From Melioribacteraceae bacterium (GTDB lineage Bacteria; Bacteroidota; Ignavibacteria; Ignavibacteriales; Melioribacteraceae): DNA of 33,372 bases. Location of the stretch: the NCBI GenBank assembly GCA_016342755.1, contig JAEINS010000037.1:1-33372 (forward strand), in the 5' to 3' direction. The position numbers and the translations under genes are program-made. This document shows, piece by piece, positions 11,736-23,533 of the stretch (position 1 is the first letter of the stretch; every line of letters starts with the position of its first letter). The notes under the pieces were generated by a model that did not search any database, was not told where the DNA came from, and saw only the letters and a list, made by a program, of their open reading frames with translations.

Positions 11736-11750
11736 TTTTATTTGCTGTTT
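11726..11750 (+). terminator. weak hairpin at a convergent gene junction
   Basis: CAGCAA (11726-11731) pairs with TTGCTG (11742-11747) across a 10-base loop and is followed by TTT. It spans the stop codons of the histidine kinase and the convergent transpeptidase-like gene, which are only 2 bp apart. The stem is short and the T run minimal, so function is uncertain. Confidence 0.28.
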
Positions 11751-12991
11751 AACAATTGCCGGATTTCTTTAATTGTTACCGGAAGTTTTTTATCATCAAT
11801 ATTAACAACAACTAAAAAACCCTTTAGCTGCTTTGTTGAATAAAAAGCATTCAGCAATTTTGCCTGATCACTTTCAATACAATAGCCAGTTTCTAAATCC
11901 CAAATTTCTTTAGCAGAAATACATCCCATTGTTGGTGTTAACGGATAATAAGGTTTATTCTTATAAAATTCTAAGTTGTCGGTTGAACCATGCATTACAA
12001 TTAGCCTTCTTCCATTTTTACCAGCGTAAAAAGATTCATAAACCGGCAGATAATCTTTCCAGGTTTCTGGCAACAAATTCTTGTAATCCTCAATATTCCA
12101 ATTCTGATATTTGTTTTTTCCATGAAAGAATATCTTCGGACTTTTGCCAAACGGAATTCTTATTAATACATTGTCAGTCGGGCCAATTGATTTAGTCGGG
12201 CTAATATAAGATCCAACAATACTAAAAATCCCCTGTGGTGTATTCCCTTTCGAAAGATAACCGGGAAGCCGGGAAGTTGAAGTTCCTAATTGTTTAATAA
12301 AAAACAGACTGTCGTTTTCATCTTTCACAAACTCGCCGTTTGGTTTCTTTATAATTGTAATACCGGTAAATGATCTGTCTTTTCTAAAGATTGTATAAAT
12401 GATTGTCTTCCCTTTTTGAAACGAATGATCTAACAAGGCTTTAATACCGGGCTCTGTTTTATCCGGCTTCAGATCGTTTAAGAAAAATTCAATAATATCA
12501 TCTTTTCTGCCGCCAAATCCAGATTCAATTTTTGAATTGATATAATCTATCGAAATATCTTTATAGTTATTTTGCAGCAAATGTTTTGCAGCCATTACAA
12601 AAATTTGTGAATCATTAGTTTCTTCAAATATTTTACTTGTTTCTTCTGTAAATTTATTTGGATATAAAGAAAATACAGTAGTTAATATAACCCTTTGGAA
12701 ATCATTACTAAATCTGCTGTAGTCAGTTATAACACGTGTTAATGCATTATATACAGCTTCATTTGTATAAAAAGCTAGATCAAGATCCAGAAATAATGAT
12801 CTCCATTCTTTTTCATTTATAACAGTTTTTGCAAAGACGGTATTAATTCTATTGTTTAATTCATTAATGTATTTTTCCTGTCCGGATTTTGTCGCAAAAT
12901 CGGATTGCAAATTTTTTATGTTAATCACTCTTTGCGCTGAAAGATTGCAAAACACGAATACAAAAAATAATATCAAATATTTATACTGCAC
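11738..12991 (-). CDS. secreted L,D-transpeptidase-like (YkuD-like) protein
   Basis: The 417-residue protein has a signal peptide (hydrophobic 5-17, cleavage after Ala-Gln near 20). Residues about 25-185 are an unrecognised, largely helical region. The C-terminal part (about 195-400) resembles the YkuD catalytic fold: LPGYLSKGNTPQGIFSI (242-258) parallels the Thr-Pro-x-Gly strand, HGS at 334-336 gives the conserved His, and MGCISA (355-360) gives catalytic Cys357, with a Ser after it in place of the usual Arg. Such enzymes form 3-3 peptidoglycan cross-links or attach proteins to the wall. The Cys-Ile-Ser variant and long linker make the exact reaction uncertain. The start is GTG with AAAGG upstream; there is no suitable ATG. 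It is divergent from the MORN/TonB-C gene, so both may share a promoter region and an envelope role. Confidence 0.65.
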   Translation of the reverse strand: MQYKYLILFFVFVFCNLSAQRVINIKNLQSDFATKSGQEKYINELNNRINTVFAKTVINEKEWRSLFLDLDLAFYTNEAVYNALTRVITDYSRFSNDFQRVILTTVFSLYPNKFTEETSKIFEETNDSQIFVMAAKHLLQNNYKDISIDYINSKIESGFGGRKDDIIEFFLNDLKPDKTEPGIKALLDHSFQKGKTIIYTIFRKDRSFTGITIIKKPNGEFVKDENDSLFFIKQLGTSTSRLPGYLSKGNTPQGIFSIVGSYISPTKSIGPTDNVLIRIPFGKSPKIFFHGKNKYQNWNIEDYKNLLPETWKDYLPVYESFYAGKNGRRLIVMHGSTDNLEFYKNKPYYPLTPTMGCISAKEIWDLETGYCIESDQAKLLNAFYSTKQLKGFLVVVNIDDKKLPVTIKEIRQLLNSK

Positions 12992-13142
12992 TTATAAACC
13001 TTTTTCTTGGAAAGCTAAATATACAACTTTAGAAAATATTTAAACAACCTTTATAAAATAGAAATATCATTGAATAATAAATTCGTAATTTTTGATTGTA
13101 ATTTATTTATTTTTAGATCTTAAAAAAACGGCTTATAATATT

Positions 13143-14288
13143 ATGAAATATCTATACATACTTTTTTTTCTCACATATATAGGTGCATTTGCACAGACAG
13201 GCATTGTTAAAGTTAAAAATCTTGACGGCAGTATCAGTTCTGAAGAAAGTTTTATAGACGGAGTTTATGACGGAACAAGTTACTGGTTTTATAAAAACGG
13301 CAACATTAAAACTGAAAAAACTTTTGACCGCGGTAAATTAAACGGCTGGATAAGAGATTTTTACGATACCGGCATTTTAAAGTCTGAGTTTTATATACTT
13401 AATGGAATTAAAAACGGTATCCAAAAAGAATATCATGACAACGGCGCTCTAAGTTCTATAACAGAATATGATAATGGTATTCGTATAAAATTCAATCCGT
13501 TTGAATATGACTCACTTTACATAACGCCAATTGAAGCTTACAGAGCCGGCAGCCGGCAAGAATTGCTTCGGAAAAGAAAGAAGCAGGAAATAATTTGCAG
13601 TGTAGAAATATGTCCGGAACCAATTGGAGGAATGAAATCGATTAATGATAATCTTGTTTATCCCGAAGAAGCTAAATTATACGGAATGGAAGGCATTGTA
13701 AATGTTATTGCAAGAATTGATACCGATGGAAACGTACTTGAAACTTATGTGTTCTCGGGAATTGGCTTGGGCTGCGATGAAGCGGCAATAGAGGCGGTGA
13801 AAAAAACAAGATTTTTACCTGGACAGGAAAACGGTGAATCTGTAATTGCTGACGCGACCTTGAAAATAATTTTTGCACTAGATGACAGAACTAAGTTTTT
13901 ATTATCGCGGAAAGAAATTATACCTCAAAAAATACCGACTAAAACCGAAGGATTACAGATTGGTGAAAAGACAGATATAAAGCCAATAAAAACATTTGTA
14001 TGCGATTTTGATCAATGTCCTGAGCCGAAAAAAGGGTTGCAGAATTTACTAGACAAAATTGAAATTCCACCTACCGCTAAAAGATTAAATATAGAAGGAA
14101 AAATTGTTATACTGGCAACAATTGATGAATATGGTTTTGCCCGTGATACAAAAATTATAGAAGGACTTGGTTACGGAATTGACGAAGCAGTTGAAACAGC
14201 AATATTTAACACTGAATTTGAAGCTGCCAAACATAATGGCAAATGGATAAAGGCCAATGTAACCATCACACTTATGATAAAAAAATAA
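13143..14288 (+). CDS. secreted MORN-repeat protein with two TonB-C-like domains
   Basis: Translation most likely starts at the ATG at 13143, which begins a clear signal peptide (KYLYILFFLTYIGAFA, cleavage near residue 18); a longer frame from TTG at 13092 would bury it. Residues about 20-120 hold MORN-variant/YwqK-like repeats (Tyr/Phe-x-x-Gly-x-x patterns such as WFYKNGNIKTEKTF and FYDTGILKSEF). Two TonB C-terminal-like domains follow, about 155-247 and 288-381. Each is introduced by a Cys-Pro-Glu-Pro motif (157-160, 292-295) and each has the Gly-Ile-Gly/Gly-Tyr-Gly-x-Asp-Glu-Ala helix start. There is no Pro-rich linker, so it is not a conventional inner-membrane TonB. It may bind TonB-dependent receptors or other outer-membrane partners in the periplasm; the function is inferred only. 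It is convergent with the synthetase fusion across a shared hairpin. Confidence 0.75.
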   Translation: MKYLYILFFLTYIGAFAQTGIVKVKNLDGSISSEESFIDGVYDGTSYWFYKNGNIKTEKTFDRGKLNGWIRDFYDTGILKSEFYILNGIKNGIQKEYHDNGALSSITEYDNGIRIKFNPFEYDSLYITPIEAYRAGSRQELLRKRKKQEIICSVEICPEPIGGMKSINDNLVYPEEAKLYGMEGIVNVIARIDTDGNVLETYVFSGIGLGCDEAAIEAVKKTRFLPGQENGESVIADATLKIIFALDDRTKFLLSRKEIIPQKIPTKTEGLQIGEKTDIKPIKTFVCDFDQCPEPKKGLQNLLDKIEIPPTAKRLNIEGKIVILATIDEYGFARDTKIIEGLGYGIDEAVETAIFNTEFEAAKHNGKWIKANVTITLMIKK

Positions 14289-14322: not shown

Positions 14323-17300
14323 TTATAACTTCTTAACTAAGCCGCTATATTTTCTTTCAACTTTAAACCCGAAATGATAAAAATATTCAGGTCTAAAAAA
14401 TCCGGTTGTTACATACCTGTAGTTCAGATCTTTAGCTCTATTAAAAAACTCGTTCATAAGTTTTTCACTAATTCCCTTTTTACGATACTGATTAGCAACA
14501 ACAACTTTTTCCATGTGAAGAGTTTTTTTATCCGTTTTTCTAAAAAAGAGTCCGCCAATAATAAACCTTCTTTCAGATATAGCAATTAAGAAATTATGCT
14601 CCGATGTAAAATTCACTATAAGATTTTCTTCCATAAACAGTGTATGTAATCTCGAAATTTCTTTTGGTGAAATTGGATTTCTGATATAGAATGTTGATCC
14701 GTTGTAATCTTCGGTATGTACAACAAGATTTGGTTCTTCTATTCCTTCCGACTTCACAAAATCTACCGAATCCTCCGGCTTAAGATGCGGATAACCAAGA
14801 CGTGCTAAAAAGAATTTTTCTTTCTTAGTTAAATCATACTCTAATTCCAGTTCCGCAATCTTCGCAAGTCTATTTTCCTCAGTTATATTCTTATCATGCT
14901 GTTTATTAATTATTTCTATTAAAACAGCTTTTACATCCGAATTAGAATTCCAGAAAATTGTTTCTAAAAAGAATCTGGTTCTGGTTTCGCTATAAAGTTC
15001 TTCCAGCTCGGTTAAGTGATATGTATTGTATAGATCGAGCAGCATCTGCGCCTGCGCTTCTAAAGACGCATCACTATTGAGATCCAGCCATCTGAAAAAT
15101 CTCATAATCGCAAAGTAAAGCGGTTTTGGCATAAATCCTACAGCTTCAACTCTATCTAAAAAGGCATTCAGTAATTCAAGAATTTTCCCTTTATCTTCTA
15201 TATCCGAATAGTTCTCAAGTTCATATTTGAACTGTCTTAAAATCTGTAAACCTTTTTTCTCCCCTTCAGCATTTATTAAACCCGAGAAAATAAATCTCCA
15301 TGTTTTAATCGATTTTAGGAAAGGATATTTCTCACATGTTTTTTGAATAAAAGTCTGATAAAATGAATTAAATAATTTTGGAAGTGTTTCAAATTCTTTC
15401 CTCTCTGAAAAAGAAATTATTTTTGTCCCAACTTGATAATCATGTGTTGCAATAATAAAATTCTTAATTGAAGGATTTGTTAATTCCAGTTTATATCCTG
15501 TTAATCTCCAGAAATTGAAATAAGCAGCAGATGCATTCCAGATAAAGAATTCCCACATATGGGCAAATTTAATTTTATCCTTATCCAGAACTTTTGAACA
15601 TTCGCGTCTAAGATAACTGGCTACAGATAAGCCTGGAACAAACTTGCCGCTCCAAATATCATATTCTTCCCAGTATCCGCCAAAGTCCTCAACTAACTCC
15701 TGAACAAAATGTCTTGACCCGGCTTGTATTAACCAATTGACTTCGGAAAGGACATCACTTTTATTAAGCTTTTTATTTATGTTTAAAACAATTTCGTACG
15801 AACCATAATTTCTTGTCTGAACTGATAAACGATAAACATCTTTATCATTATAAGTGCGAAGTAAACTAATCCAAATACCACCTGGAAGTAAATCATTTAA
15901 TCTTATTAATATATTGCCGGTAAATAAAAATATAGCTTCTCTTAAAATCTGTGTTTGCGTAATAGCACCAATAATCCTTTGTTTAGTATCTTCGTCAATG
16001 TTTTCTTCAAGTATAATTACATCTTCCCAGGTATACTCTTCACCGGTCTCTATATCTATCGCAATAGTCTGATTATCGCCTAACCAGTTTCTAAATCCAA
16101 ATCTTAACCTGGTTCTATATTTTTGCGCCAGTTCTGATAATGCATTCCATCCGCGATCAATCTGATACTTAACAAATACTTGTCTTAATTTTTCATATGC
16201 TACAGGATGTTTTAATCCATATTCACAAAGCAAATTGAGAAACGAATCAATCAAAACACTATTATAACTTGCGTTATCAATTTCTCGTTCAACTAGTTTT
16301 TCAAGATAAGCCGCAGACTGAACAATAAACTCTTTATTAAATTTCTGTTGTACAATTTGCGCAGTTAATGAATCGTTTAGCAATAACTCTGAATCTGATA
16401 AGTAAGCTTTAAATATTTCTGAGACCTCATACCCAGTAGGATTAAATAATATAATTTTTAATAATTCCCTTTTAGTATTTATGTTATTGGTTATTCTGGG
16501 ATTACGCAATAACTCAGAAACAACTTTATAAACTGATGAACTTTTATCACTCATTACAGATCGTATGTATTCAAGACTAGTCTCATTTGCCTCCGATTGT
16601 AACATCAGTAAAGCAAGATGAAGTCCGTTAAATGATTTTTCTTTTGCTTTAATAATCCTCTTTAAACTTTCAACTTGTTTTTCCTCAACTTCTGAAGATG
16701 TTAGAATAGAATATAACTCAAGATATTTTTTGCTTCGTGAATGTCTTTGCCACTGAATTATTGAATTACCGGTAAACTCAACTAACTCTTTATTACCAAC
16801 CCAGTACTTTGGGTTTGTAATTAGTGTTTGGAAATCGATAGTATTATCTGACTTATAAAGACTGCTTCCTATTCTAATCAAATTGTAATCTTGTTTACAA
16901 ATCACTAATTCTTCTTTCAAATTGTTAAGCAGGATGTTATTTGAATTAGAAATTACATCACTGCTTATAGAACCTTTCTCCCGTAAGAACCAGTTAGGAA
17001 TTTGAATTTTGAGCTCATTAAGTTCAAGTTCCAAATAATTTTTCCTATACATCGATTCGATTGCCTCAGAGAAGTTTGCCTCAATTATACTGCGCTTAAA
17101 AGTGCCTTTGGCAGTAAGTTCCCCTTTATCAGCACTAAATTCTCTGTCTATAATTCTAAAATCCATTATTCTTTCGAATGGAGCTAAAAATTTGTTTATG
17201 GTAGCAATAACAGATGAAAAATATTCCTCTCTGTGTTTCGGTAAAAAAGATTCAAAAGTTGTATCCGCGCTGTCAAACTCCGGATAAATTAGAACTGTAT

Positions 17301-19068
17301 TAAAAGCTCTATGATCACCGGCTAAAAACACTTGTTTTATAAAACCAAAATCATAAAAATATTTTTCTATTTTTTGCGGAGCTACTGTTTCTCCTTTTAT
17401 ATTTTTATAGATCTCTTTTTTTCTATCAATTATTTCAATGAAATTATCTTCATCCTGCTTCATTATATCACCGGTTGCAAACCATCCTTCCTCATCAAAA
17501 ACTTCCTGTTTAATCTGATCATAATACCCCATCATAACATAATGCCCCCGGATAAGCAGCTCACCGTCTTCAGCAACTTTCATTTCAATCCCGGGAAGAG
17601 CCGTTCCAAGAGAATTAGGTCTATATTTCTTAATCGGCGTCATTGAAATTCCGCCGGTAGCTTCAGTCATTCCGAAGCCGCTCATCAGTTCAATACCATA
17701 CTGCTGAAAAAACTGGAATATATCAGGCGATAAATAACCAGCCGCTGATAACCCCCATTTTAACTTACCTCCGGTAATATCTTTCAGTTCAGAAATTATA
17801 ACATCTACATCGTCTAATTCAATATTTACCTTAGCGCAGACTTTTTCGTATAGCTGCATCCACTTTTTAGGAATACTAATAAATATTGTAGGATTAACCG
17901 CTTTCATGTTTGCAATCATTGTTTCGAGCGATGGATTCTCCATGAAAACATATTCAGCACCCCAGAAAATTGCACCGGTCATTTCAAAGTATCTTCCAAA
18001 CGTATGAAATAAAGGCAGATAAGCAAGGAACCTATCGTTGTCACCTATATCAGGCAAAGCCATAGCTCTGCAAAATCGTTTATAAACAATATTAATATGA
18101 CTAAACATTATTCCTTTGGGTTCGCCGGTAGTTCCAGAGGTATACATAATTGTAGCCAGGGAATTTATATCTAGACCAGCTCTATAACTATCAAGCTCTA
18201 AATTCACTTTCCCATATTGCTCTAAAAACTCTTCGAGTGAAATAACCCACTCTTCAGCACTATTTCCTTCTAACAGAATAACTTTTTCTAAATATTTAAG
18301 ACTCGATTTTATACTTTTAACTTTTGATAATTGTTTTTCGTCAGTTGTAATCAATATGGAAGCTTTTGTCTGATCTAAAATAAACGCGGCATGTTTGCCA
18401 ACACTATTCCCCGGAATCATCACATTTACAATACCCGATGTTAAACATGCAAGATCAAATAACGCCATATCCGGAGAGTTGGTAGTTAAAAACGCGACCT
18501 TATTTTCAGCTCCGTCAAATTGTTTTAGAATATTAAAAAGCGCATTCGAATATTCATTAACTTTTTTATACGTTTGTTCCCATGTAAAAGATTTAACCTT
18601 AGTTCCTTTAATCAGTTTAAACAAATCTTTATTCTTATAATAAAAACTCCTGCGTTCAAACAGCTTCGAGAAACTATAATCACTCTTTATTATTAGATCA
18701 GCAATTATGCTGTCCCATTCTCTATCGTTATAAATTTTGTTTAGAAAAGTTACAGACTTAAAAACATCAAGATAATCCCAAATCAGTAATTTTTCTTTTT
18801 CTAATAGTTTTGATTCTAAAAGTTCACTGCCAAAATCCTTATATACTTTAGGTTCCAAGTACAGAACAATCTTATCGTAAATCCTGCATATTTTAATTTC
18901 TTCAAATAATAATATCAGGTCATTTTTCTGAACCGAATTTAATTCCAGTTGTTTATTCAGTTTTAGGAGAAGATCATTAAACTTAATTGAAATTCTTTTT
19001 ATCGAATATTCTGAGTACGGACTTTTTTTATTCGATTCTGTTTTTATGATTTCAAGGAGATTTTTCAT
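14323..19068 (-). CDS. giant fusion: acyl-CoA synthetase (AMP-forming), unknown middle, GNAT acetyltransferase
   Basis: The single 1581-codon frame has three parts. Residues about 130-680 are an AMP-forming ligase of the long-chain acyl-CoA synthetase type: A3 YTSGTTGEPKG (309-319), A5 GFGMTEA (464-470), A7 TGD (532-534), A8 DRKKEIYK (548-555), and A10 LTAKGTFKR with catalytic Lys658. It should adenylate a carboxylic acid and load it on CoA. Residues about 1-125 and 700-990 are helical without a recognised family. About 1060-1225 looks like a degenerate protein-kinase fold (hinge-like YDIWSGKFVPGLSVASYL, then NFIIATHDYQVGTKIISF), lacking a clear catalytic His-Arg-Asp. Residues about 1455-1581 are a GNAT domain (acetyl-CoA loop YRKKGISEKL at 1528-1537, terminal FYHFGFKV). 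The whole resembles a self-regulated synthetase, with GNAT modification of Lys658 an attractive inference. It stands alone between terminators. Confidence 0.85.
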   Translation of the reverse strand: MKNLLEIIKTESNKKSPYSEYSIKRISIKFNDLLLKLNKQLELNSVQKNDLILLFEEIKICRIYDKIVLYLEPKVYKDFGSELLESKLLEKEKLLIWDYLDVFKSVTFLNKIYNDREWDSIIADLIIKSDYSFSKLFERRSFYYKNKDLFKLIKGTKVKSFTWEQTYKKVNEYSNALFNILKQFDGAENKVAFLTTNSPDMALFDLACLTSGIVNVMIPGNSVGKHAAFILDQTKASILITTDEKQLSKVKSIKSSLKYLEKVILLEGNSAEEWVISLEEFLEQYGKVNLELDSYRAGLDINSLATIMYTSGTTGEPKGIMFSHINIVYKRFCRAMALPDIGDNDRFLAYLPLFHTFGRYFEMTGAIFWGAEYVFMENPSLETMIANMKAVNPTIFISIPKKWMQLYEKVCAKVNIELDDVDVIISELKDITGGKLKWGLSAAGYLSPDIFQFFQQYGIELMSGFGMTEATGGISMTPIKKYRPNSLGTALPGIEMKVAEDGELLIRGHYVMMGYYDQIKQEVFDEEGWFATGDIMKQDEDNFIEIIDRKKEIYKNIKGETVAPQKIEKYFYDFGFIKQVFLAGDHRAFNTVLIYPEFDSADTTFESFLPKHREEYFSSVIATINKFLAPFERIMDFRIIDREFSADKGELTAKGTFKRSIIEANFSEAIESMYRKNYLELELNELKIQIPNWFLREKGSISSDVISNSNNILLNNLKEELVICKQDYNLIRIGSSLYKSDNTIDFQTLITNPKYWVGNKELVEFTGNSIIQWQRHSRSKKYLELYSILTSSEVEEKQVESLKRIIKAKEKSFNGLHLALLMLQSEANETSLEYIRSVMSDKSSSVYKVVSELLRNPRITNNINTKRELLKIILFNPTGYEVSEIFKAYLSDSELLLNDSLTAQIVQQKFNKEFIVQSAAYLEKLVEREIDNASYNSVLIDSFLNLLCEYGLKHPVAYEKLRQVFVKYQIDRGWNALSELAQKYRTRLRFGFRNWLGDNQTIAIDIETGEEYTWEDVIILEENIDEDTKQRIIGAITQTQILREAIFLFTGNILIRLNDLLPGGIWISLLRTYNDKDVYRLSVQTRNYGSYEIVLNINKKLNKSDVLSEVNWLIQAGSRHFVQELVEDFGGYWEEYDIWSGKFVPGLSVASYLRRECSKVLDKDKIKFAHMWEFFIWNASAAYFNFWRLTGYKLELTNPSIKNFIIATHDYQVGTKIISFSERKEFETLPKLFNSFYQTFIQKTCEKYPFLKSIKTWRFIFSGLINAEGEKKGLQILRQFKYELENYSDIEDKGKILELLNAFLDRVEAVGFMPKPLYFAIMRFFRWLDLNSDASLEAQAQMLLDLYNTYHLTELEELYSETRTRFFLETIFWNSNSDVKAVLIEIINKQHDKNITEENRLAKIAELELEYDLTKKEKFFLARLGYPHLKPEDSVDFVKSEGIEEPNLVVHTEDYNGSTFYIRNPISPKEISRLHTLFMEENLIVNFTSEHNFLIAISERRFIIGGLFFRKTDKKTLHMEKVVVANQYRKKGISEKLMNEFFNRAKDLNYRYVTTGFFRPEYFYHFGFKVERKYSGLVKKL

Positions 19069-19153: not shown

Positions 19154-20458
19154 TTATTTTATTCCAACAATTTTTTCAAGCATGTCTGTTGTTAATGATT
19201 TTGGTCTTTCAATTGGATAACCAAGCGCACGTGCCCAAATTATATTAGCACAAACACCTAACGCACGGCCAACTGAGAATAACACAGTATAGAAATCATA
19301 TTCTTTAACTCCATAATGCCACTGAATAACACCCGATTGCGCATCCACGTTTGGCCATGGGTTTTTAGCTTTACCCTGTTCTTCCAAAATTGGAGGAACA
19401 ACTTTATAAAGAACATCAACATACTTAAATATTGGATCATCCTTTAAATGAGCTAAACTAAATTCTCTCTGTGCCATATACCTTGGATCAGTCTGGCGTA
19501 AAACCGCATGACCAAATCCGGGAACTACCTGACCAGAATTTAAAGTATCCCAGACAAATTTTTTCATTTCCTCTTCAGTTGGTATCTTATGATCCATCTG
19601 ATCCATAACACCCTGAATCCACATAAGAACTTCCTGATTTGCCAATCCGTGTAACGGTCCGGCTAACCCGTTTATCATTCCGCCAATTGAGTAATAGATA
19701 TCTGATAACGCGCTAGATATTAAATGTCCGGCATGGGCACTTACATTGCCGCTTTCATGATCACTATGTAATAAGAAGTATAATCTCGAAACATCATCGT
19801 AAGGTTTATCAACACCCATCATGTGTGCAAAGTTTCCACCCATATCAAGATTAGGATCCGGAGCAATAATTGTGTCACCACGATATTTCATTCTATAAAT
19901 ATACGCAGCAATACTTGGCAGTTTGGCTAAAAGATTTAAAGCATCTTCATATGTAGGTTTCCAGTAATCATGTTTACTTATGTTATGATATTCTTTTACA
20001 AACTCAGATTCCCTTTGCATTGCAACTACCGCTGTAGATAACATCGTCATAGGATGTGTATCTCTTGGTAAAGCTCTTAAAAGATCAATTACATAGTTTG
20101 GAACTTGTTTACGCTTGTTAAATTCTTTTGCAACTACTTCAACTTCACTTTCGGTAGGAATATCGCCAGTAAGCAGAAGATAGAAAAAGCCCTCTACATA
20201 AGGCATATTACTGCCAGGCACTTTAGGAAGTTTTTCTAATGTTTCAGGAATTGTGTAACCACGAAATCTAATTCCTTCAACCGGATCTAAATACGAAATA
20301 TCTGTTACTAAACCTTTAACACCACGCATTCCGCCAATAGCCTGAGCAATCGTAACTTCACCAATTTTCACATCGCCATAATCTTTTAATAATTTAGTCG
20401 TTCTAGGACGCCAATCATTAATCTTCTGTTCCAATTTCTCTTTAAGTAGTTCTGCCAT
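19154..20458 (-). CDS. gltA: citrate synthase, mitochondrial (eukaryote-like) type
   Basis: The 434-residue enzyme condenses acetyl-CoA and oxaloacetate to citrate, the entry step of the TCA cycle. The sequence follows the mitochondrial citrate synthase subtype rather than the usual bacterial hexameric or archaeal-like forms. HSDHESGNVSAH (231-242) and GPLHGLANQEVL (267-278) carry His270. GFGHAVLRQTDPRY (314-327) carries His317, and NVDAQSGV (370-377) carries Asp372. These match the pig-heart catalytic triad His274/His320/Asp375. There is no N-terminal targeting peptide. A strong GGAGGA precedes the ATG, the best ribosome site in the window, and a strong terminator follows, so the gene is a well-expressed single unit. 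The symbol denotes function only; the lineage differs from E. coli gltA. Confidence 0.95.
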   Translation of the reverse strand: MAELLKEKLEQKINDWRPRTTKLLKDYGDVKIGEVTIAQAIGGMRGVKGLVTDISYLDPVEGIRFRGYTIPETLEKLPKVPGSNMPYVEGFFYLLLTGDIPTESEVEVVAKEFNKRKQVPNYVIDLLRALPRDTHPMTMLSTAVVAMQRESEFVKEYHNISKHDYWKPTYEDALNLLAKLPSIAAYIYRMKYRGDTIIAPDPNLDMGGNFAHMMGVDKPYDDVSRLYFLLHSDHESGNVSAHAGHLISSALSDIYYSIGGMINGLAGPLHGLANQEVLMWIQGVMDQMDHKIPTEEEMKKFVWDTLNSGQVVPGFGHAVLRQTDPRYMAQREFSLAHLKDDPIFKYVDVLYKVVPPILEEQGKAKNPWPNVDAQSGVIQWHYGVKEYDFYTVLFSVGRALGVCANIIWARALGYPIERPKSLTTDMLEKIVGIK

Positions 20459-20558: not shown

Positions 20559-21836
20559 TTATTCTTTCATAATTAAGTTAGCCGAAGTAATTCCGCTCTT
20601 TACAGCACCTTCAATTGTTGATGGCAAATTTGTTCTACTGAAATCTCCAGAGTATATTAAGTTAGTATACTTACTTTCAAATCCAGCTCTAACTTTCTCA
20701 ATTTCCACACCCGGAATAAATGTAGCTCTTTTTTCTCTAATTAACTTTGAATTAACAATTTTATCAGAAATTTTAAAAGGGAAATATTCTTCTATCTCAT
20801 TAATAAAATAGGTTATTATCTGATCATGGGATAAATTAAGCAACGCATCAGAATTACTGGTTACAGTAGAAATATAATTCCCTTTATTAAAAATCCATTG
20901 AACAGGAGAATCAATTAATCCATAAAAATTTTCAGTGAATGGATTTTCATTTAACCATAAATGCAGACTGGTTATTGATGAATATTCAACCTTGTTCAAA
21001 TCAGAATTCTGTTCACTAAATAATTTTAAAAGCATATGCGGAGGAATTGCTAAAACAGCGTAATCAAAGTCTGCGTACTCATTTTTATCAGTTATAATTT
21101 TTATTACTTTTTCACCCTCAGTTTTAACCTGAATAACTCTTTCAGAAAGATGAACTTTACCACCGTTATTTGTAATAAATTCACTTGAAGCATCAACATA
21201 TAAATGGCTTAAACTAACTTTTGGAACTATAATATTGGATGCCCTGCCGCCATTAAAAAACATCTGTTTTAATATTATGGCTAAAGTTTTTGCGGAAGCA
21301 TCTTTAATTGAAGTATTTAGCGTGCCTTCAATAATAATCTGCCAGAAACATTTAATAATATTTTGGGACTGATTATTTTTTCTCAGCCATTCTTCAACAC
21401 TAATGTTTTTCAATTTTTCAGCATCCAAAAAATATAATGAGAAGAAAAATTTAAGCAGCCTAATTCTTTCATTAAAAGATAGAGCTTTGTAATTGAATAA
21501 CCCGATTAACAAATTTATTGGATAAGGGAAATGAGGATCCGATTTTAATTCATATTTTTTTTTACTACGATCAATAAATTTAATTGATAATGAACCTTGA
21601 AAATCTAATTTATCCAGGGTTCCAATCTTATCTAAAAAACTTAATGTATTATTATAGCAGCCCATCAGTATGTGCTGACCATTATCAACAAAATTACCGT
21701 TATACTCTAAGGAATAAGCTCTACCGCCCAATTTCGGCGAAGCTTCTAACAATAAGACATCGGCTCCTTTTTCCGATAAGTATACACCTGTTGCCAGACC
21801 GGAGATTCCCCCACCAATAATAATACATTTTTTCAT
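20559..21836 (-). CDS. hpnE: hydroxysqualene dehydroxylase HpnE
   Basis: This 425-residue FAD-dependent amine-oxidase-superfamily enzyme reduces hydroxysqualene to squalene, the last step of the bacterial HpnCDE route from farnesyl diphosphate. The N-terminus has the dinucleotide-binding GGGISG (8-13), the Glu31 that contacts ribose (LLEASPKLGGRA), and NGQH (52-55), characteristic of HpnE and related phytoene-desaturase-like proteins. The C-terminal FAD segment reads LIYSGDF and later STIEGAVKSG. Its ATG overlaps the stop of hpnD by one base (TAATG), indicating translational coupling. It is the last gene of the lpxH-to-hpnE run; no squalene-hopene cyclase is present here. A carotenoid desaturase is the main alternative, but the hpnC/hpnD context argues for HpnE. 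Confidence 0.9.
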   Translation of the reverse strand: MKKCIIIGGGISGLATGVYLSEKGADVLLLEASPKLGGRAYSLEYNGNFVDNGQHILMGCYNNTLSFLDKIGTLDKLDFQGSLSIKFIDRSKKKYELKSDPHFPYPINLLIGLFNYKALSFNERIRLLKFFFSLYFLDAEKLKNISVEEWLRKNNQSQNIIKCFWQIIIEGTLNTSIKDASAKTLAIILKQMFFNGGRASNIIVPKVSLSHLYVDASSEFITNNGGKVHLSERVIQVKTEGEKVIKIITDKNEYADFDYAVLAIPPHMLLKLFSEQNSDLNKVEYSSITSLHLWLNENPFTENFYGLIDSPVQWIFNKGNYISTVTSNSDALLNLSHDQIITYFINEIEEYFPFKISDKIVNSKLIREKRATFIPGVEIEKVRAGFESKYTNLIYSGDFSRTNLPSTIEGAVKSGITSANLIMKE

Positions 21837-22678
21837 TAATAAACCAGTCTATACTTTGCCCAGGTGCCTAAAGAGATTAGAACCTTTTCTAATTTGTTAA
21901 CATTAATTCTTTTTTGAAAAACATTGAAGTTTTCGGCTTCAAGTTTGCAAAGCAGCTTATAATAAATATGCTGCATAGCTCTAGCCGGAAACATACCTTT
22001 TTTATCTTCGAAGTGAAGAGAGTTATTTGCCTTCATAAAATAATCTTTTGCTCTTTTTGCTTCATATTTCATAAGAGAAAGGAAATTACTATTATAAATA
22101 CCGTCTAATAATTCTTGTTCCGAATAATTAAATTTTTCGAGATCTTCTTTAGGCAGATATATTCGACCATTATCAGCATCAGTCTTAACATCTCTAAGTA
22201 TATTGGTAATTTGCATTGCCAGCCCTAAGTTAACCGCAAACTCTTTTGCCGATTTATTTTTGTAGCCAAAAATTTCGATGCACATTAAACCTACTGTAGA
22301 AGCAACTCTGTAACAATAGAGTTTTAATTCTTTAAAAGAATGATATCTATTCTTAGTTAAATCCATTTCCATTCCTTTAATTAATTCAAGAAATGGATGA
22401 ACAGGAATGTTAAATTTATTAATAATTTTTGCCAGATTATTTAACAGGGAAAATTCTGAAACCCCGCTCAACGATTTTTCAAACTCAGTAAGCCACTTAG
22501 TAAGATTACGATTTTTTACTTCATTAGAATCATCACCTTCATCAACAATATCATCAGTCTGGCGGCAAAAGGCATAAACAGTATTCATTGCGTCTCTCTG
22601 ACCTTCGGGTAAAAGTGAAAAGGCATAATAAAAACTGCTCTTACTTCCTTTTGCTATTTTTTTTGCTAGATCATTCAT
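21836..22678 (-). CDS. hpnD: presqualene diphosphate synthase HpnD
   Basis: The 280-residue enzyme of the squalene/phytoene synthase family condenses two farnesyl diphosphates to presqualene diphosphate. The N-terminal SFYYAFSLLPEGQRDAMNTV matches the HpnD signature. The two Asp-rich Mg-binding motifs are TDDIVDE (41-47) and RDVKTDADNGR (162-172), and the RIYLP element after the second is intact. It lies 9 bases downstream of hpnC and overlaps hpnE by one base, so the three enzymes are made together. The family also contains phytoene synthase; the adjacency of a second family member of the HpnC type and of HpnE resolves the assignment. Confidence 0.93.
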   Translation of the reverse strand: MNDLAKKIAKGSKSSFYYAFSLLPEGQRDAMNTVYAFCRQTDDIVDEGDDSNEVKNRNLTKWLTEFEKSLSGVSEFSLLNNLAKIINKFNIPVHPFLELIKGMEMDLTKNRYHSFKELKLYCYRVASTVGLMCIEIFGYKNKSAKEFAVNLGLAMQITNILRDVKTDADNGRIYLPKEDLEKFNYSEQELLDGIYNSNFLSLMKYEAKRAKDYFMKANNSLHFEDKKGMFPARAMQHIYYKLLCKLEAENFNVFQKRINVNKLEKVLISLGTWAKYRLVY

Positions 22679-22687
22679 ATTATTCTT

Positions 22688-23533
22688 TCAATTTAATAAG
22701 GCTTTTATCAACGCAATAAAATAATCAGTCTTACTTAGTTTTGGTCTTCGATTTAAAACGTCGAAATTCATTTTTTCAATTTTGCTTAAAATTGCTTCTC
22801 CGCCATTGATTGTCCAGCTTATCTGAATTCTCAATTTGTAAGGAAGCATCTCCAATAAATTTCTTCCTTCATTAAACATCTCTCTTGTTCTCTTAATCTG
22901 ATATTTAATGAGATTTGTAAAGTTAGAACTATTTTCCTTAATTCCAAACTGATTTTCATTCACTTGATATTCATCACACTCATCTAAAGGTATATATATC
23001 CTTCCCTTATTGAAATCGATGCTTACATCCTGATAAAAATTAGCGAGCTGAAGTGCCGAACAAATTTTATCCGAATAGTAAAACGCTTTCTCGTTTCTAA
23101 TACCATTTAACTCAAGTATAATTCTGCCAACCGGGTTAGCAGAATTTGAACAGTAATCCAAAAGCTCATTAAAATCGTTATATCTATGTTTATTTACATC
23201 TTGTTTAAAAGCTTTTAACAAATTGTAAAAATTATTTTCAGATAAATTTAATTCTTTTATTGTATTAGCAAGTGCAAACCAAAAATCGGTTTTGTAGCTT
23301 TTAGAAAGGCAGTCTTTTAGATTTTGATTATATTCATCAAGTTCTTTTAATCGTTCAGCCGGGTCTTTATCTCCTTCATCAGCAATATCATCAGCGTCTC
23401 TGGCAAATTTATAAATTACAGCAACGTGTTTTCTAAGTTTTTTTGAAACGAAAAATGATAATACCGGAAAATTTTCATAGTGATCTTTCGCCAGTTTTTC
23501 AGAATTAATATATGCGGAATCTATTGAGTTCAT
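22688..23533 (-). CDS. hpnC: hydroxysqualene synthase HpnC
   Basis: This 281-residue squalene/phytoene synthase family member converts presqualene diphosphate to hydroxysqualene. HpnC hallmarks are HYENFPVLSFFVSKKLR (18-34, compare the HpnC HYENFPVAS opening) and the first metal site RDADDIADEGD (45-55). The second site is QDVSIDFNKGRIYIP (168-182), with Asp169 and Asp173. It starts at an ATG 12 bases after the PBP1A stop, and its order before hpnD and hpnE is the common operon order. Products are probably destined for hopanoids or other C30 lipids of the envelope, whose cyclase must be encoded elsewhere. Confidence 0.93.
   Translation of the reverse strand: MNSIDSAYINSEKLAKDHYENFPVLSFFVSKKLRKHVAVIYKFARDADDIADEGDKDPAERLKELDEYNQNLKDCLSKSYKTDFWFALANTIKELNLSENNFYNLLKAFKQDVNKHRYNDFNELLDYCSNSANPVGRIILELNGIRNEKAFYYSDKICSALQLANFYQDVSIDFNKGRIYIPLDECDEYQVNENQFGIKENSSNFTNLIKYQIKRTREMFNEGRNLLEMLPYKLRIQISWTINGGEAILSKIEKMNFDVLNRRPKLSKTDYFIALIKALLN

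Follow-up and report, generated by a model that had tools for sequence, protein, structure and literature searches.

What kind of enzyme carries an acyl-CoA synthetase and a GNAT acyltransferase in one chain, with several hundred residues of no evident family between them? The question is raised by a gene in the window, which is the whole stretch of 33,372 nucleotides that was analysed and is also the entire contig (C2) of a Melioribacteraceae source genome. The original prediction described a single frame of 1581 codons at 14323-19068 and gave no strand. This frame is confirmed as one reading from ATG to stop on the minus strand, encoding 1581 amino acids, and it has homologues of similar length.

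Gene plan and distribution

The fusion protein has three modules: an AMP-forming acyl-CoA-synthetase, a kinase-like domain and a C-terminal GNAT. The synthetase (ANL) module, of long-chain type, spans residues 157-676 (17041..18600, minus strand), where Pfam places PF00501 (AMP-binding) at residues 157-516 (E = 9e-60) and PF23562 (AMP-binding_C_3) at residues 557-676 (E = 3e-11). The GNAT acyltransferase domain occupies residues 1448-1581 (14326..14727, minus strand). PF00583 matches residues 1488-1555 here (E = 8e-6) and passes its family cut-off, and the GNAT Pfam models taken together fall between residues 1466 and 1569. The predicted union of ligase and GNAT in one chain is therefore supported both by these Pfam modules and by the homologues of similar length.

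Pfam has zero matches at E 1 in residues 677-1465, and the rest of the chain is divided by alignment and structural models. The N-terminal segment (residues 1-150; 18619..19068, minus strand) belongs to no family. A small mixed beta/alpha segment at residues 681-780 (16729..17028, minus strand) has P691, W693, G734, W756, G758 and N759 invariant in 37 aligned rows, and it is followed by a mostly helical segment (residues 781-1024; 15997..16728, minus strand) with weak conservation up to residue ~950. The predicted kinase-like (PKL) domain comes next, at residues ~1025-1295 (15184..15996, minus strand). An all-helical segment at residues 1296-1440 (14749..15183, minus strand) then leads to the GNAT, with W1327, N1331, Y1350, R1363 and T1370 invariant in the same 37 rows.

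When residues 657-1581 are used as the query, 25 of 38 genomes have a match, the source genome among them, and the best match in each of these 25 spans no fewer than 721 of the query's 925 residues. Nineteen of 296 genomes sampled from the window's phylum have a match, and 16 of them are true members (source genome counted); G232, G268 and G306 have short weak matches only and were left out of the member count. The phylum of G316, a contig of which (L039) is titled Calditrichota, has matches in 22 of 40 genomes, several of them partial at contig ends. A close-relative pattern scan of genome_contigs finds 16 loci whose titles carry Bacteroidetes, Ignavibacteria-type or Melioribacter names, Calditrichota/Calditrichaceae names or, twice, plain 'bacterium'. 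These data, which cover the window's phylum, the phylum of G316 and the genome_contigs scan, indicate at the level of sequence that the fusion plan is conserved in two bacterial groups, Ignavibacteria and Calditrichota.

Full-length homologues form two clades, with ~43-53% and ~28-31% identity to the window protein. The search for such relatives that the original prediction proposed finds frames of 1515 to 1649 aa in the window's phylum and in Calditrichota. Three of them sit in one-contig genomes (G023, G034 and G036). A sequencing error joining separate genes, which had been named as the outcome that would overturn the prediction, is excluded because the same architecture and length recur in other assemblies, including these three. 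A profile of residues 965-1445 matches 20 of 395 genomes of the window's phylum (source genome counted). Every match lies within an open frame of 1515-1638 codons, so the middle region is not seen standing alone in this 395-genome sample.

A phage origin was considered and rejected, the four PHROGs matches all lying in the GNAT part. The scan of viral_contigs for the fusion protein returned 24 pattern matches and zero relatives, and tblastn found no plasmid-borne copy in the plasmid collection. Membership in a defence system was also rejected, with zero PADLOC matches at E 0.01. One copy in the phylum of G316 (L093, genome G336) has a stop codon inside an otherwise full frame, as assembled.

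The synthetase and GNAT modules

The best NCBIfam match of the ligase module is FadD11, at 202.6 bits against a cut-off of 950. This score is so far under the cut-off that no named equivalog applies among the best 25 of the 103 NCBIfam families matched by the fusion protein, these 25 being ligase or adenylation models. Residues 157-676 are of the same type as FadD/ACSL-type long-chain ligases, with a PF23562 C-terminal domain, and the nearest other match in the source genome is a long-chain synthetase paralogue (L002; 38% over residues 423-676). Conservation across 37 rows extends to motifs A3, A4, A7 and A8, and A5 (GFGMTEATGG) is conserved as well. The module is thus an ANL member by its PF00501 domain and these five motifs, which are the part of the predicted intact A3-A10 series that stands; the canonical A10 lysine position, by contrast, is occupied by Thr656.

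The A10 loop of the window protein, T-A-K-G-T-F-K-R at residues 652-659 (17092..17115, minus strand), makes this change clear when it is aligned with the paralogue. The L002 loop reads GELTPTLKVKR, and its A10 lysine aligns with Thr656; across the fusion family the loop is of equal length and mostly reads GELTPKGTYKR. In a tally of 52 rows the canonical position holds T in 47 cases and S in the other 5, and Lys654, which lies two residues before it, and Arg659 are invariant (52/52). The fusion protein therefore differs from FadD/ACSL-type ligases in an A10 lysine shifted by two residues, and also in the two further modules attached. From sequence, the change could reflect either a catalytic lysine that has moved or the loss of adenylation in a module that now serves as a sensor.

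The original prediction pointed towards silencing in cis, with an active acyl-CoA synthetase turned off when its own GNAT acetylates the active-site lysine, but this is unlikely. Pairs that act in trans are known, since AcuA acetylates K549 of AcsA (PMC11255334), and the invariant Lys654 could take the place of the canonical lysine in a genome that has a sirtuin. The canonical target lysine is nevertheless Thr or Ser in 52 of 52 rows, and the kinase-like domain would be left unexplained.

The C-terminal module is a GNAT by PF00583 and by its modelled fold, which is closest to E. coli YhbS (Z 14.1), followed by human NatD (13.3), S. lividans Pat (13.3) and GCN5 (13.2). E. coli PatZ (9it0_A) matches over 134 residues at 3.2 A with Z 12.2. 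Because YhbS and NatD match as well as or better than Pat, the acceptor is not readable from the GNAT fold. GNATs often carry a general base at the place corresponding to position 1520, which is E in 39 and D in 12 of 51 usable rows. The acetyl-CoA loop had been predicted to be intact. Its published consensus is R/Q-x-x-G-x-G/A (PMC8556138), and the window protein has R-K-K-G-I-S, with Ser where the consensus has Gly or Ala. The arginine (49/51) and the first glycine (51/51) follow the consensus, and the last position is Ser in 44 of 51 rows and Gly in 7.

Of the 37 rows, 31 carry the GNAT stretch [TSA]TG[FY]FRP, and the 14 rows of alignment A1 have its continuation EYFY.F.F. Such a stretch is what a fixed small acceptor would require, and this bears on the main rival to a sensing function, a biosynthetic cascade in which the ligase would make acyl-AMP or acyl-CoA, the GNAT would acylate a small amine to give an N-acyl lipid or amide, and the kinase-like domain would hold or phosphorylate the acceptor. 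This N-acyl synthase is possible but rather doubtful. In its favour, the ligase is of long-chain type with the ATP motifs kept; against it, the canonical A10 lysine position is Thr or Ser, and the six distant-clade rows differ in this very GNAT stretch.

A kinase-like domain in the middle region

The original prediction left about 750 residues unassigned. This remains true for sequence families (Pfam at E 1), but about 270 of these residues have a predicted kinase-like fold. The structure prediction that had been proposed for this region was made with AlphaFold2, both for residues 680-1581 (14 sequences; mean pLDDT 82.7, pTM 0.66) and for residues 965-1445 alone (pLDDT 85.5, pTM 0.81). The two models point to a kinase-like fold at residues ~1025-1295, while residues 681-1024, which a fold search with the 902-residue model barely probes, have no fold assignment.

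In Foldseek the first model has its lowest E-values with Vps34 and JAK3 (~2e-4 to 4e-4). After re-alignment its rows are mostly GNATs and the non-GNAT rows are Bud32 and PRPK, with Bud32 (4ww7_A) matching over 221 residues at 4.3 A (Z 12.5). The same Bud32 structure is the best match of the domain model (Z 11.6, 217 residues, 4.2 A). The 50 matches listed after re-alignment of the domain model, which include choline kinase, PsiK and two chains z of pre-40S particles (presumably RIO kinase), are all kinase-fold proteins judging by their titles, and so are the 50 listed by Foldseek. Most matches in a viral structure library are viral Ser/Thr kinases (best E 3e-4). Foldseek TM-scores of the domain model are 0.22-0.29 by query length, low values that suggest a divergent kinase-like domain to which the helical tail at residues 1296-1440 is an extra. 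By these models, residues ~1025-1295 have a kinase-like fold whose nearest relatives are Bud32 and PRPK.

Sequence searches give little at this distance. Residues 677-1461 have no relative of solved structure at E 5, and no Pfam kinase family is found at E 1 in any of 31 members. The best of the scattered Pfam names for the middle region of these members, Yos9_DD (E = 5e-4, two members), was judged to be chance. Searches of the source genome with PF01636 and PF00069 hit other genes but not the fusion gene. One locus of the source genome (L124, contig 6, 87460-88155) has an APH-type kinase domain within a 1017-codon open frame. In another genome (G025, contig 13), six clustered Ser/Thr kinase domain matches at 50520-62983 lie ~10 kb from the fusion gene copy at 72758.

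Profile alignment by hhalign, which uses no structure, gives the kinase-like region a probability of 6.7% (E 0.005) against 12 APH sequences and 4.3% (E 0.009) against a Pkinase set of 21 sequences from 22 loci, both sets being taken from relatives. Five unrelated control sets give 0.1-0.4%. The neighbouring segment 684-780 comes to 3.0% (E 0.015) against this Pkinase set, its value against citrate synthase being 1.0%, and the other two segments of the fusion protein give 0.1-0.5%. Since a segment outside the domain comes this close, the test is not significant and was used for register only. Both the APH and the Pkinase alignments pair N1203 with the catalytic-loop Asn and N1198 with the HRD Asp, and the Pkinase alignment also places residues 1140-1156 at the hinge and helix D. 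This register is the same as the one drawn from the motif and is allowed by the predicted strands.

The putative catalytic and Mg loops occupy residues 1198-1212 (N-PSIK-N...HDYQ; 15433..15477, minus strand). Among 51 usable rows the catalytic-loop Asn at 1203 is kept in 47 and the DFG-type Asp at 1210, matched to DFG by position, in all 51. The HRD Asp position 1198 is variable (D 21, N 18, others 12), and beta3 has no conserved Lys, position 1099 being K in 22 rows and R in 9. Other conserved positions are Arg1080 in beta2 (R 50, K 1) and Glu1109 in the helix after beta3 (E in 41). The domain thus lacks the classical active protein kinase set of beta3 Lys, HRD Asp, Asn and DFG Asp, and with N1203 and D1210 kept it is likely to be a pseudokinase or an atypical kinase. 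Nucleotide or metal binding is plausible from these residues and classical phosphotransfer is doubtful. Exceptions to the classical set do exist, as WNK uses a beta2 lysine and PRPK is active without a typical beta3 lysine (PMC4718504).

The modelled fold of residues 1025-1295 is shared with Bud32/PRPK (4ww7_A), but identity is only ~10%, the fusion domain has no conserved HRD Asp or beta3 Lys, and the stretch between its catalytic-loop Asn and the DFG-like HDYQ is short. The Bud32 entries 4ww7, 4ww9 and 4ww5 have AMP, ADP and AMPP bound, according to their titles. A kinase-like domain is also joined to an acyl-CoA enzyme in ACAD10 and ACAD11, which are not known to have a GNAT. In those proteins a catalytically active kinase phosphorylates 4-hydroxyacyl-CoA before the fused enzyme acts, and this enzyme is a dehydrogenase instead of a ligase (PMC12440821, PMC11342911). 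It is quite improbable that the domain studied here is likewise an active small-molecule or acyl-CoA kinase. Fusion to an acyl-CoA enzyme has this precedent, N1203 and D1210 are kept and choline kinase and PsiK are fold matches, but the HRD Asp position varies and there is no conserved beta3 Lys.

All three modules are under purifying selection. Synonymous sites are unsaturated throughout in three of five pairs tested, two of which share L035, and because dS is mostly above 1 the resulting dN/dS values are approximate. They are 0.02-0.04 in the GNAT, 0.03-0.05 in the kinase-like domain and 0.06-0.08 in the ligase, and rise to 0.18-0.23 in residues 1-150, the least constrained part of the protein. 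The GNAT is the most constrained module, with the lowest pN and dN among the modules in 5 of 5 pairs. Relative to the ligase, the kinase-like domain shows similar constraint in some pairs and weaker constraint in others. Its lower dN/dS in the three pairs was not taken as evidence of stronger constraint than in the ligase because of the shared L035, higher dS, a pN that is no lower in L080/L081 and an opposite result in the saturated pair L031/L037 (pN 0.204 for the kinase-like domain and 0.125 for the ligase). Column conservation over 37 rows is also lower in the kinase-like domain than in the ligase core.

Neighbouring genes and candidate functions

A citrate synthase gene lies 85 bp upstream of the fusion gene on the same strand (19154..20458, minus strand). 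In a survey of 37 loci with mechanically chosen frames, 19 have it as the immediately upstream gene on the fusion gene's strand and 24 have it within four frames; L076 lacks upstream sequence. All six distant-clade loci are without it. An amine-oxidase-type gene and two squalene/phytoene-synthase-type genes lie further upstream (20559..23533, minus strand), which we take to be HpnE, HpnD and HpnC, the second synthase being named by its clustering with the first, and genes of these types often precede the fusion gene. At 12 loci a gene that we assume to encode CTP synthase comes after it, together with purine genes. Overall, these neighbours resemble a stable housekeeping block more than a pathway cassette, and adjacency to citrate synthase was set aside as functional evidence because it is probably block synteny. 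The squalene-synthase-type genes found upstream in many loci would suit the N-acyl synthase, but zero lipid-amide genes were found among ten neighbour proteins scanned.

Three further observations concern nearby genes. A 417-aa protein (11738-12991, minus strand) with an apparent signal peptide has zero Pfam matches, and its H-G-S and M-G-C-I stretch is reminiscent of L,D-transpeptidases. A gene convergent with the fusion gene (13092-14288, plus strand) encodes a protein with MORN_2 and TonB_C domains. A trio of an esterase-type, a PAP2-type and a small gene, with Pfam assignments made on the L044 copies, occurs near the fusion gene in 5 of 37 loci (L032, L033, L035, L044 and L072).

The reading that we favour, although tentatively and by analogy, is that the protein would be a PatZ-like, metabolite- and nucleotide-sensing GNAT acyltransferase built on an AMP-forming synthetase scaffold. 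The acyl-CoA-synthetase module would sense acyl-CoA and control the fused GNAT, as the degenerate domain does in PatZ, and the pseudokinase-type domain probably binds nucleotide and would add adenine-nucleotide sensing. The lysines that the GNAT would then acylate could belong to metabolic enzymes or to the fusion protein itself, with Lys654 a candidate self-target and the neighbouring citrate synthase a weak candidate target. This reading draws on the PatZ plan, on the nucleotide sensor AcuB and on acetylation of a synthetase lysine by AcuA.

PatZ and S. enterica Pat (type I) are likewise large chains in which an acyl-CoA-synthetase-type domain stands at the N-terminus and a GNAT at the C-terminus. 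In PatZ-type proteins the synthetase domain is NDP-forming, is inactive because it lacks a catalytic His, binds acetyl-CoA and controls the fused GNAT (PMC8556138). A missing catalytic residue there is thus paralleled by the changed A10 position here. The synthetase of the fusion protein is AMP-forming, however, and a kinase-like domain and helical segments lie in between. Of the 7 Pfam families that it matches at E 1, none is of the NDP-forming kind, so it is not a type I Pat by sequence. The Bacillus AcuA/AcsA/AcuB proteins similarly bring an AMP-forming synthetase, a GNAT and an adenine-nucleotide sensor into one control system, in which AcuB, a Bateman-domain protein, senses adenine nucleotides and inhibits the deacetylase AcuC (PMC13121692). 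These are separate proteins, whereas the fusion protein is one chain with a kinase-like domain.

Several results argue for the sensing acyltransferase. The canonical A10 lysine is T or S in 52 of 52 rows, parallel to the inactive synthetase domain of PatZ-type proteins. The metal-ligand positions N1203 and D1210 are kept while the HRD Asp is not, and Bud32, the nearest fold, has entries with AMP, ADP and AMPP. The GNAT resembles S. lividans Pat and E. coli PatZ, dN/dS is well below 1 in all modules and lowest in the GNAT, and the kinase-like region lies within the long frames in all 20 genomes with a match. The source genome also has one sirtuin, but sirtuins are common, being present in 10 of 14 control genomes. 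Against the sensing acyltransferase, the invariance of Lys654 and the kept ligase motifs equally suit an active ligase with a shifted lysine, YhbS and NatD are GNAT matches as good or better, the neighbours look like a housekeeping block and profile alignment gives no significant link to kinases.

A further idea, also improbable, is that three activating modules cooperate: the ligase would make acyl-AMP or acyl-CoA, an atypical kinase-like domain would carry out a non-classical reaction (such as nucleotidyl transfer) or activate the acceptor, and the GNAT would complete the transfer. On this view, Ignavibacteria and Calditrichota would have a metabolic regulator or natural-product synthase of a new class.

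In line with the original prediction of an undescribed enzyme, searches of open-access full text found no description of the architecture, going by titles and abstract starts. A review divides bacterial protein acetyltransferases by domain plan into five types, and none of these, in its account, combines an AMP-forming synthetase, a kinase-like domain and a GNAT (PMC8556138). The fusion protein may represent an enzyme of a new kind, for metabolic control or for assembly. Its gene, conserved in two groups, offers a direct way to learn whether evolution has more than once turned synthetase scaffolds and pseudokinases into metabolite sensors or, alternatively, whether a ligase and a GNAT work in series as a synthase.
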